Shown here piece after piece: positions 6,181-33,234 of a stretch of DNA of 45,044 nt. Position numbers and translations under genes: made by a program. The notes beneath the pieces are model-generated. The model made no database searches. It was not told where the DNA came from and saw nothing but the letters and a program-made list of their open reading frames with translations. Position 1 is the stretch's first letter. Every line of letters begins with the position of its first letter. Origin of the DNA: Actinomycetota bacterium (GTDB lineage Bacteria > Actinomycetota > Actinomycetes > Nanopelagicales > Nanopelagicaceae); the NCBI GenBank assembly GCA_009698615.1, contig WLPU01000015.1, forward strand, positions 1 to 45,044, written 5' to 3'.

Positions 6181-6210
6181 ATTGTGCCGAATTCATTGCT
6201 AGAGTAACAA
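6181..6210 (-). promoter_or_regulatory. crtYc promoter, sharing DNA with the divergent pnuT promoter
   Basis: On the minus strand TTGTTA (6205-6210) and CACAAT (6181-6186) are 18 bp apart and the -10 ends 6 nt before the crtYc ATG. The divergent pnuT transcript must also start in the roughly 36 bp between crtYc and the TPP aptamer. A TTGTGC at 6182-6187 is a possible -35 for it. The two promoters therefore physically overlap. Confidence 0.5.
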
Positions 6211-6290
6211 ATACGGGAGCCGACACGGCTGAGAGGATCTGAAACTCAGATCGACCGTTTGACCAGTCCGATAATGCGGACGCGGAAGGA
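6211..6290 (+). promoter_or_regulatory. TPP (THI-box) riboswitch
   Basis: The segment matches the TPP aptamer in order. P2 is ACGG 6213-6216 with CCGT 6255-6258. P3 is GCCG 6219-6222 with CGGC 6226-6229, followed by the invariant CTGAGA at 6229-6234. A 7-bp optional P3a hairpin follows (6236-6242 with 6246-6252). Then comes TTTGACC, and P5 GTCCG 6266-6270 with CGGAC 6277-6281 enclosing ATAAT, ending in GCGGAAGGA. The GGAAGGA at the 3' edge is also the Shine-Dalgarno sequence of the gene at 6297, so ligand binding should block translation initiation. P1 is not clear to me. Confidence 0.9.
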
Positions 6291-6296
6291 TCATGA

Positions 6297-6872
6297 ATGT
6301 TTATACTTTTCCGAATTTGGGGATACGACCTTACCGCCCTGGAACTTGTTGCCGCTCTGACTTCCTTCATTGGCGTGGCATACGGAATTACTGGAAAGCG
6401 AATTACGTGGCCGTGGTGGATCATCAGCAGCTTCCTATATGCAGTTTTTTTCTACAAAGTGAATCTCTTGGCAAGTGCTACATTGCAATTTGTTTTCATC
6501 GCCGCTGCAGTGTGGGGCTGGTTTGGCTGGGCTCCCACGGGGGCCGTGCCTGGGAAGTTAAGCAGAAAATCAATTTCCTATTGGGCCGTTGGGCTTTTCC
6601 TTTCTTGGATTATCCTCGCGCCGGCCCTTCACCGCATTGGTGCAGCAGCCACATGGTCTGATTCTTTTATTTTCATTGGAAGTTTCATTGCCCAAGTTTT
6701 GATGGTCTATGAAAAATTCGAAAACTGGCCTTTGTGGTTTATCGTCGATGCGGTTGCAACGATTGAGTATTTCACACTGGGCTATTGGTTTACGGGAGCT
6801 CTTTATCTCGCCTTTACTTTTATGGCGCTCATTGGCTGGCGATCCTGGTTGGTGCGCGTAAATAAGGTATGA
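6297..6872 (+). CDS. pnuT: PnuC-family vitamin transporter, probably thiamine-specific (PnuT)
   Basis: This 191-residue membrane protein has the PnuC-family pattern of multiple helices rich in Trp, including WPWWIISSFLYAVFFY and VWGWFGW. Classical PnuC imports nicotinamide riboside; the related PnuT imports thiamine and is known to sit under TPP riboswitches. The aptamer directly upstream therefore argues for thiamine or a precursor as substrate. ATG 6297 is chosen because the aptamer-embedded AAGGA lies 6 nt before it; an out-of-frame ATG at 6293 opens only a shadow frame. The stop overlaps the downstream kinase start as ATGA. The family is secure; substrate is inferred from regulation. Confidence 0.85.
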   Translation: MFILFRIWGYDLTALELVAALTSFIGVAYGITGKRITWPWWIISSFLYAVFFYKVNLLASATLQFVFIAAAVWGWFGWAPTGAVPGKLSRKSISYWAVGLFLSWIILAPALHRIGAAATWSDSFIFIGSFIAQVLMVYEKFENWPLWFIVDAVATIEYFTLGYWFTGALYLAFTFMALIGWRSWLVRVNKV

Positions 6873-7420
6873 ATCTCATTGATGACCTGAATGAAATCTT
6901 CTTATCGCCCCCACGGTGCGGGACAACTCGCGTCATAGCCATTGATGGGCGGGCTGGGGCTGGGAAAACAACACTTGCTCATGAACTATTCCTTGCATTT
7001 AGTACTCAGATGCAGGTCAGCGTTCTTGGGATGGATGAGATTTACCATGGCTGGGACGACGCGTTGGGAAATTCCTTGAAGCACACTCTGTCTAGCCTTC
7101 TTGAGGATCTAGGTCAAAATAGCGCTTCCCAAGTACCCATATATAACTGGAGTTCAGCCTGTCTTGATTCAGCACGAATCATTAATCCGTGTGACTTATT
7201 GATTCTCGAAGGCGTTGGAAGCGCCCAACAAATAGTTCGTGAATTCACTCTCGCAACTATTTGGTTGGACATTGACCCATCGATTGGACTTCAACGAGTG
7301 ATAGACCGTGATGGTGAATTGATTTCTTCACAGATGCAGCGGTGGCAGCAAGAGGAAGTGCGCCATTTTTCTCACGACAAAACTCGCGAGAATGCAGATT
7401 TTGTTCTATCGACAATGTAG
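6869..7420 (+). CDS. Small P-loop kinase (uridine-kinase-like), possibly acting on imported thiamine
   Basis: This 183-residue P-loop protein has Walker A DGRAGAGKTT at residues 26-35, a DEIYHGW segment in place of the substrate-binding DD(L/F)Y motif, and an LILEGVGS Walker-B-like strand. It resembles a broad actinobacterial set of uridine-kinase-like ATP-binding proteins whose substrates are mostly unknown. It overlaps pnuT by 4 bp (ATGA) and so is under the same TPP riboswitch. PnuC-type transporters work by metabolic trapping, which needs a cytoplasmic kinase, so phosphorylation of thiamine or a pyrimidine precursor is a reasonable inference. A nucleoside or nicotinamide riboside kinase role remains possible. 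Confidence 0.7.
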   Translation: MNLIDDLNEIFLSPPRCGTTRVIAIDGRAGAGKTTLAHELFLAFSTQMQVSVLGMDEIYHGWDDALGNSLKHTLSSLLEDLGQNSASQVPIYNWSSACLDSARIINPCDLLILEGVGSAQQIVREFTLATIWLDIDPSIGLQRVIDRDGELISSQMQRWQQEEVRHFSHDKTRENADFVLSTM

Positions 7421-7473: not shown

Positions 7474-9372
7474 GTGGCCGATCTTTCTGGAGAACTTATT
7501 GACAGCAGGTATGAGCTCCTGCGTCAGATTGCAACCGGAGGAATGGCCACTATTTATGAAGGGCTAGACACTCGCCTAGATCGTAAAGTAGCTGTAAAAA
7601 TCATGCACTCGCATCTGGCAAATGACGAAGAGTTTGTGAATAGGTTTATTCGAGAAGCAAAGGCTGCGGCGGCACTCACCCATCCCAATATTGTCGCCGT
7701 ACAAGATCAAGGGTGGAATCAAAGTGGCGTTCCAGCTGTATTTCTAGTGATGGAATTGATCGAGGGTCACACTCTTCGTGATTACCTTTTTGAACGGGGC
7801 AAACTTTCGCAGGAAGAAACGCTTAGGTACCTCATTCCTGTGCTTAGCGCTCTTGCTGCTGCGCATAAAGTTGGGATCGTCCATCGTGATATAAAACCCG
7901 AAAACATTCTGATCTCTTCATCGGGTTTCGTTAAAATTGCTGATTTTGGATTAGCAACTGGCGATCTCATAGGCAGAACTTTGACCACCGAATCAAGTGT
8001 CATATTGGGCAGCGTTTCCTATCTACCCCCCGAGCAGGTCCAACGGGGTGTGACGGATTCTCGAAGTGATGTCTATTCCGTAGGCATTGTTGCCTACGAA
8101 TTACTCACCGGAGAGAAACCTTTTGAGGGCCAAACTCCAATTGAAATTGCCTATAAACACGTCAACGAAAAAGTTCCAACGCCTTCGATGGTAGTCAAAG
8201 GAATTAATCCTTTAGTAGACGCCCTTGTCGCGCGAGCCACGAGCCTTAACCCCGATGATCGACCTCGTGATGCTGGTCAATTTCTCGATGAGATGAGAGA
8301 TGTGCTGGCCGTACTCGACCCAAAGCGAACCCAAATGAGCCTCGAACTCGATCTACCTGCGATGCCGGTGCGAGATAAATCTCGTAAAGGCTCGAGGGTT
8401 TCGACAGGCAAAACACCTCCAATCTCTGGCACAGTGTTAACTATGCCAGCGGCCAAAGAAAGTGTGCGCGCCAAAAAGAAGCGAGCAAGTGCGCGAGTTC
8501 AAAGGAATCGATGGGTTGCTCTTCTTATAGTGATCGCTCTATGTGCAGGAGGTTGGTACCTTCTTGTCGGTCCTGGAGTACGAATAGTTGTTCCTTCAGT
8601 TGCTGGGATGAGCGTTGCTGAAGCAAATCAGGCACTTGAGCCACTGGGATTGAAATCTGTTGTCGGCGAAGAAGTTTTTAGTGAAGATATTCCTAAGGGA
8701 AAGATTATTTCTTCAAAACCAGGTGGCGGCGGGAAGGTAAAAGCGGCGGGAACAGTCTCATTTACCCTCTCAAAAGGTCCAGAAAGATACCTAGTTCCAG
8801 ATGTGCATGGCATTACACCGGATGCCGCTACAGCGCTCATCATGAAAAGTCCCCTGAAGATTGGAAATGTAACAACAAGTTTTAGCTCAGATGTTCCTGA
8901 CGGAATTGTCATCAGCACCACACCTGCTGTCGGGACTTCGGTCACGCGAGACTCCACAATAGATATTTTAGTGAGCAAAGGAATTGAACTTGTGGTCATG
9001 AGTTCATATGTCGGAAAGAGTGGAGAGCAAGCATTAAACGAGCTCACCGATGCAGGATTTGATGTCACTTCCGACTTTGCCTTCAGCGACACAATCGCAA
9101 CGGGGGCCGTCATATCGCAAACACCAGATGTCGCGACCGCTGGTAAGGGTACGAAAGTTGTGCTCGTCGTATCAAAGGGATCTGAATCTGTCTTTATTCC
9201 AAATATCTATTCTTTAACCCAATCAAAAGCCACCAGCGCATTGCAGGACCTCGATTTGAAGGTGATGGTGAAGAAAATAGGTAAAGCCAAGATCAAATCC
9301 GTCACCAACATCTCCCCAAAGGTTGGCACCAAAGTTAAACGTGGCAGTACGGTCACCATCACAGTAGGGTAG
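7474..9372 (+). CDS. pknB: PASTA-domain Ser/Thr protein kinase
   Basis: This is a transmembrane Hanks-type kinase that senses peptidoglycan fragments. The kinase domain covers about residues 12-275: Gly loop ATGGMATIYEG, VAVK with ATP-binding K42, HRDIKPEN (D139 catalytic) and DFG (D157). A Lys/Arg-rich linker precedes one membrane helix (about 347-367). Four PASTA repeats follow to the C-terminus, each ending in a VSKG-like strand; these normally bind muropeptides or lipid II. Length 632 aa is typical of PknB. The usual rodA/pbpA/FHA neighbours are absent, so PknB versus PknL paralogy is uncertain. The start is GTG 7474; TAAGAT at 7462-7467 lies 6 nt upstream without a Shine-Dalgarno, suggesting a leaderless transcript. 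Confidence 0.9.
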   Translation: MADLSGELIDSRYELLRQIATGGMATIYEGLDTRLDRKVAVKIMHSHLANDEEFVNRFIREAKAAAALTHPNIVAVQDQGWNQSGVPAVFLVMELIEGHTLRDYLFERGKLSQEETLRYLIPVLSALAAAHKVGIVHRDIKPENILISSSGFVKIADFGLATGDLIGRTLTTESSVILGSVSYLPPEQVQRGVTDSRSDVYSVGIVAYELLTGEKPFEGQTPIEIAYKHVNEKVPTPSMVVKGINPLVDALVARATSLNPDDRPRDAGQFLDEMRDVLAVLDPKRTQMSLELDLPAMPVRDKSRKGSRVSTGKTPPISGTVLTMPAAKESVRAKKKRASARVQRNRWVALLIVIALCAGGWYLLVGPGVRIVVPSVAGMSVAEANQALEPLGLKSVVGEEVFSEDIPKGKIISSKPGGGGKVKAAGTVSFTLSKGPERYLVPDVHGITPDAATALIMKSPLKIGNVTTSFSSDVPDGIVISTTPAVGTSVTRDSTIDILVSKGIELVVMSSYVGKSGEQALNELTDAGFDVTSDFAFSDTIATGAVISQTPDVATAGKGTKVVLVVSKGSESVFIPNIYSLTQSKATSALQDLDLKVMVKKIGKAKIKSVTNISPKVGTKVKRGSTVTITVG

Positions 9373-33120: not shown

Positions 33121-33234
33121 CCTTCCGCGCTTGCTGGCGCTCAAGAGCGCCAACCTGGTCTTCACCCGGAGCACCCCGCCGCGATGGAGGGTTGCCGTCT
33201 AGTTAGCCGGGGCTGGAACCTAGAACTCGTGACC
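33121..33234 (-). promoter_or_regulatory. SAM-IV riboswitch upstream of metX
   Basis: Read on the minus strand, the leader matches the actinobacterial SAM-IV aptamer as I recall it. It has GGTCACGAG, AGCCCCGGCT, CGGCAACCCTCCA, CGCGGCGGGGTGC, CCGGGTGA and GACCAGG. P1 pairs GGTC (33234-33231) with GACC (33160-33157). A 3' hairpin (33135-33152) and then AGCAAGCGCGG follow. The GCGCGG overlaps the metX Shine-Dalgarno GGAAGG, which suggests control of translation. A -10-like CATTAT (33240-33245) places the transcript start at about the first aptamer base. Confidence 0.88.

Follow-up and report, generated by a model that had tools for sequence, protein, structure and literature searches.

The window, the whole stretch of 45,044 nucleotides that was analysed, belongs to a 1.50-Mb genome (G000) that is 99.98% complete and carries a TPP riboswitch, a gene for a PnuT-type transporter and a gene for a P-loop kinase in a single operon. 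The kinase is probably a non-orthologous thiamine kinase, predicted to convert thiamine to thiamine monophosphate (TMP), and the operon is likely to constitute a two-gene vitamin B1 salvage unit. The analysis establishes the riboswitch, the operon, its family-wide conservation, the pattern of gene content and the fold of the kinase.

The TPP riboswitch (THI element) precedes the transporter gene. A search of 301 bases yielded an RF00059 match at 6203–6304 on the plus strand, spanning all 105 model positions with a score of 38.6 bits (E 2.5e-6). The Rfam gathering score is 54.3 bits, hence the element is absent from default Rfam scans of the whole window and the whole genome. It was recovered by a lax local scan and by a covariance model built from the sequences of relatives (R1), which scores the window element at 97.8 bits and has no other match in G000. 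The aptamer comprises helices P2–P5 (6206–6295, plus strand). An alignment of the upstream regions of 25 relatives contains 32 invariant columns, and the core CGGGAGC...GCTGAGAGG...CGACCG...TAATGC is kept throughout. RNAalifold applied to these relatives formed P2–P5 with compensatory changes at 11 of the 20 predicted pairs, and covariation as strong as that observed occurred in none of 500 shuffles. The conserved core, the compensatory changes and the shuffles show that the sub-threshold match is not a chance one. The canonical closing helix P1 is paired in 29.6% of cells over the 25 sequences when scored on one register, that of the Rfam alignment, versus 94–100% in the other helices. Thus, the preliminary description of this DNA, which considered the aptamer complete in its key elements, holds for the core and P2–P5 but not for P1.

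A -10-like element, TAGAGT (6200–6205, plus strand), abuts the aptamer, and a TAnnnT hexamer lies 13–16 nt before CGGGAG in 27 of 27 upstream regions of relatives. The unsupported P1 and the proximity of TAnnnT to CGGGAG place the transcription start probably at or next to P2. The Shine-Dalgarno sequence AAGGA (6286–6290, plus strand), located 6 nt ahead of the ATG start at 6297, falls inside the aptamer's conserved 3' edge, as had been proposed, and hiding it would be the mechanism of translational control. Every PnuT-containing family genome in which the upstream sequence is present has exactly one R1 element, located before pnuT. An additional R1 match in G017:C184 (E 6e-5) lies where the sequence resembles cytochrome-biogenesis genes and was regarded as a chance hit. 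Actinobacterial TPP aptamers, in the window (6200–6219) and at loci L277, L280 and L131–L142, begin with ACGGGAG just behind a -10-like element and have no supported P1. TPP switches of this kind, lacking P1 and abutting the promoter, may be widespread, which would account for sub-threshold Rfam scores.

The transporter (191 amino acids; 6297–6872, plus strand) belongs to the PnuC family, with a PF04973 score of 123.8 bits against a cut-off of 27.3, and its family profile matches the solved PnuC structure 4qtn (E 1.3e-14). Control by a TPP riboswitch in a thiamine auxotroph defines the PnuT subtype, and the window transporter is found in this setting; its cargo would be thiamine. The kinase gene (183 amino acids; 6869–7420, plus strand) overlaps pnuT by 4 bp, its start codon lying in an ATGA that also holds the transporter stop. 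A PASTA-type Ser/Thr protein kinase gene (7474–9372, plus strand) is, by synteny, the conserved downstream neighbor; it marks the locus and presumably does not belong to the thiamine system. A second, distant PnuC-family gene of the same genome (G000:C3:648-1196, minus strand) is about 33% identical to that of the window and possibly serves a different vitamin, for example riboflavin or nicotinamide riboside.

The association of the two genes was examined in 60 relatives and in 80 named loci, some of which come from the same genomes as the first set. All 28 PnuT-containing family genomes have the kinase, which adjoins pnuT in 27; in the 28th (G022) the pair is split between contig ends. The PnuT count leaves out second PnuC-family genes with weak matches (E about 1e-5). 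The named loci include 73 with both PnuT and the kinase, among them that of the cultured acI strain IMCC26103 (L166), and 72 of these 73 have the TPP element, the remaining locus beginning at a contig edge. At most loci the trio lies between carotenoid genes and the PASTA Ser/Thr kinase gene. The order riboswitch-pnuT-kinase is kept in at least three more neighborhoods (L217/L218; L215/L230; L222), and therefore the association is more than inherited synteny. Several public MAG records labeled 'Bifidobacterium breve' or 'Streptomyces griseus' (L159, L164, L168, L177, L187, L211 and L217) hold acI-type or other actinobacterial loci, and their names look wrong.

ThiL converts TMP to TPP. It scores above cut-off in 34 of 37 family genomes tested, the remaining three being 74–92% complete. 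ThiE is present in 7 of 296 family genomes and absent from the other 289, and among the 37 family genomes ThiD is confined to the ThiE-containing members. In genomes lacking ThiE the ThiD profile gave weak hits, partial and with low scores, which were excluded from the ThiD count. G000 itself encodes ThiL and has neither ThiE nor ThiD, which agrees with the earlier expectation that the lineage is auxotrophic for thiamine. Because ThiL needs TMP and ThiE is missing, TMP has to come from thiamine, or be imported as such, and a thiamine kinase is expected. A complete separate set of thiamine kinase and pyrophosphokinase, which would speak against the proposal, did not emerge; thiamine pyrophosphokinase (TPK, PF04263) was found in none of the 37 family genomes, and ThiK (TIGR02721) scored above cut-off in none of the 60 genomes. 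TPK-profile matches in 12 genomes of other families extend over only ~35 of 113 positions, inside longer reading frames, and were not counted. The P-loop kinase is present in 277 of 296 family genomes and in 105 of the 108 good-quality ones, and no other family-wide kinase was found to be TPP-controlled.

PnuT is absent from seven family genomes that retain the kinase. In six of them (G012, G014, G015, G017, G018 and G030) a TPP element precedes ThiB-ThiP, and in G005 it precedes YkoE and an ECF ATPase (YkoE/D). The kinase of the ThiB-ThiP genomes has no riboswitch control. A very divergent kinase copy (26% identity) occupies the same slot after crtB in one PnuT-less ThiB-ThiP genome (L073, G030:C22, 4294–4839). 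G005 and G015 combine thiC-thiM-thiE-thiD with a thiamine transporter and the kinase. Five kinase-less genomes (G024, G033, G088, G089 and G090) all contain ThiE. They include the three good-quality genomes, of 108, from which the kinase is absent (Fisher p 5e-5, uncorrected for kinship); a further 14 kinase-less genomes are at most 86% complete. The loss events are phylogenetically few, involving genera g5 and g14. Judged by their genes, the good assemblies without the kinase make thiamine themselves.

In two of the kinase-less genomes (G024 and G033; loci L140 and L142) a TPP element, thiO, a thiS-sized gap and thiG lie directly before the PASTA Ser/Thr kinase gene. Synthesis (TPP-thiO-thiG) and salvage (TPP-pnuT-kinase) thus occupy the same chromosomal slot. 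The presence of thiE beside the slot suggests that thiamine synthesis is ancestral there and that salvage would have followed. In the thiamine-making relative G024, another TPP riboswitch (L141, G024:C30, 6530–6623, minus strand) precedes a cytosine/purine-type permease (PF02133) that is probably an HMP transporter.

The kinase matches PF00485 (PRK/Udk) weakly, with 37.8 bits. The closest named family, PRK06547 / NF005115, is annotated 'hypothetical protein' and has no assigned function; the window protein scores 95.1 bits against it, below the cut-off of 173. Uridine kinase profiles score far below their cut-offs (TIGR00235, 42.6 of 220.3 bits; PRK05480, 43.3 of 180). Thirty-four family (A3) sequences share an invariant Walker A motif DGxxGxGK, D56xxY59xxW62, W94, EGV and R143...RD148. 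D56xxY59xxW62 is located at the position of the uridine kinase catalytic Asp, and W94 lies in the Y[DN]W strand. The AlphaFold model (pLDDT 95) resembles UCK2, Udk, phosphoribulokinase and PanK, with a Foldseek TM score of 0.7 to UCK2 and Z scores of 17–18 to PanK and UCK2. The fold, the Walker A motif and the lid motif are those of the PRK/Udk/PanK class of P-loop kinases, which are known for transferring a single phosphate. With PF00485 members, UCK2, Udk, PanK and NRK1 the kinase shares the P-loop fold, the catalytic Asp-x-x-Tyr region, the aromatic YD[WF] strand, the EG motif and the RxxxRD lid. In contrast to Udk, it has no DHP nucleoside-binding segment; in profile alignments with Thermus Udk and the uridine kinase P10, the (N)YDHP nucleoside/ribose-binding segment falls in a gap. 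The protein therefore has a P-loop kinase scaffold and, by the sequence features tested, is not a uridine kinase. The closest solved sequence, 1rz3, is a kinase without an assigned function, and a search of plasmids returned distant homologues only. The earlier characterization as a uridine-kinase-like P-loop protein outside the known thiamine kinase families is borne out, as the kinase itself has no match to PF04263 and differs in fold from ThiK.

In the proposed mechanism, scarcity of TPP would cause the riboswitch to expose the Shine-Dalgarno sequence to ribosomes. Thiamine would then enter through PnuT by facilitated diffusion and be trapped as TMP when the co-translated P-loop kinase phosphorylates its hydroxyethyl group. 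ThiL, encoded elsewhere, would turn TMP into TPP.

Four other readings of the kinase were weighed. There is a slim chance that it represents a new fold of thiamine pyrophosphokinase and takes thiamine to TPP in a single step. The absence of TPK and the pairing of pnuT with the thiamine pyrophosphokinase gene tnr3 in Bacteroides (PMC5613172) are in its favor; however, such an enzyme would render ThiL useless, yet nearly all of these auxotrophs keep ThiL, and the kinase has the PRK/Udk/PanK-class fold. A thiamine precursor (HMP, hydroxyethylthiazole or a breakdown product) is also an improbable substrate, even though homologues occur behind YkoEDC and behind an NMT1/THI5-type binding protein, systems listed for both thiamine and HMP (PMC6593275). 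With ThiE missing from 289 of 296 family genomes a phosphorylated precursor has no joining partner, and G005 and G015 already possess ThiM and ThiD beside the kinase. The preliminary description had left the choice between thiamine and a precursor undecided. Since HMP and other precursors are useless to a cell without ThiE, the substrate is narrowed to thiamine, to which the gene content, the transporter swaps and the TPP-ykoEDC linkage also point.

The remaining two readings separate the kinase from thiamine altogether. An ordinary nucleoside or small-molecule kinase that merely shares the locus would resemble uridine kinase, PanK and phosphoribulokinase in fold and sequence, as this one does in its best matches, and would have many distant homologues with unrelated neighbors, as is also seen. 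This reading is unlikely, as the ribose-binding segment of Udk is in an alignment gap and as the loss of the kinase in ThiE-containing genomes, its linkage to PnuT in several neighborhoods and the TPP-ykoEDC linkage are hard to square with it. It is highly improbable that thiamine is instead phosphorylated by a distant ThiK-like protein of the APH fold, with the P-loop kinase serving another function. G000 does encode an APH-fold protein that matches the ThiK profile with 68 bits (G000:C1:29224-29874, minus strand), but this is far under the 299-bit ThiK cut-off. The protein is patchy in the family and missing from the complete or near-complete PnuT-containing genomes G021, G026, G027, G034 and G035; the prototroph G024, which lacks the kinase, does have it.

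Beyond the family, a homologue of the kinase was found in 46 of 396 genomes drawn across the phylum. Among 20 neighborhoods read, two from one genus (G540 and G583) have the order TPP riboswitch-ykoE-ykoD-ykoC-kinase with overlapping starts, and these kinases score 142 and 160 bits against PRK06547. At L207 and L211 the kinase gene follows that of an NMT1/THI5-type (ThiY-like) binding protein, with permease and ATPase genes nearby; the substrate of these binding proteins is uncertain. Rfam found no TPP element near L207, L211, L225 or L228. In the kinase tree, these three types of linkage fall on different branches. Homologues located mainly away from thiamine genes would count against the proposal. 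Within the family this is not the case, as the kinase is linked to pnuT, but it is so outside the order, where about 18 of the 20 homologue loci examined lie away from thiamine genes, which leaves room for other substrates in the wider family. The predicted thiamine kinase activity can accordingly be held firmly for the acI clade but only tentatively for more distant homologues. A broader proposal, to which we give about even weight, is that the DxxYxGW (PRK06547-like) kinase would be a third, non-homologous thiamine activator that functions across Actinomycetota with PnuT, ThiBP, YkoEDC or ThiXYZ-like transporters, and that in freshwater acI a TPP-controlled salvage pair stands where the TPP-controlled thiazole synthesis operon lies at the same site in other genomes.

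In many lakes no bacteria are more abundant than the acI actinobacteria, which depend on other organisms for vitamin B1. The TPP riboswitch and PnuT of acI are already published; a THI element before a pnuC-like gene, read as PnuT, is described for four acI strains in the available parts of Kang et al. 2017 (PMC5301498). IMCC26103, a strain from that paper, has the same riboswitch-pnuT-kinase order as the window. The same parts of that paper state that nearly all thiamine salvage enzymes are missing in acI; they report no salvage kinase and make no mention of the kinase described here (PMC5301498). The Bacteroides pnuT-tnr3 operon likewise joins a TPP riboswitch, PnuT and a thiamine-activating enzyme (PMC5613172). 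There tnr3 is a thiamine pyrophosphokinase, the partner that the preliminary description had named for PnuT elsewhere, whereas the window partner is an unrelated P-loop kinase that would need ThiL. E. coli ThiK (TIGR02721) catalyzes the reaction proposed here, thiamine to TMP followed by ThiL, but has an APH fold without homology to the window kinase. The B1 salvage enzymes named in a large genome-based survey of vitamin metabolism are ThiK, ThiM and ThiN alone (PMC6593275), and no report of the present kinase was found among open-licence papers. The assignment of the kinase appears to be new, its catalytic step being a prediction.

The path from thiamine uptake to TPP has a gap in published reconstructions, and the assignment, if true, would name the missing enzyme. 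It would also give a function to an NCBI 'hypothetical protein' family, correct auxotrophy predictions that rely on ThiN and ThiK alone, and mean that biosynthesis and salvage alternate at one locus under the same riboswitch type.

The window contains another regulatory RNA, a SAM-IV riboswitch (33122–33234, minus strand; 105.9 bits), which is the sole element returned by the standard Rfam scans. Its end, GCGGAAGG, is followed closely by an ATG at about 33112, which belongs to the controlled gene (MTTPIPPTDFTSV...).
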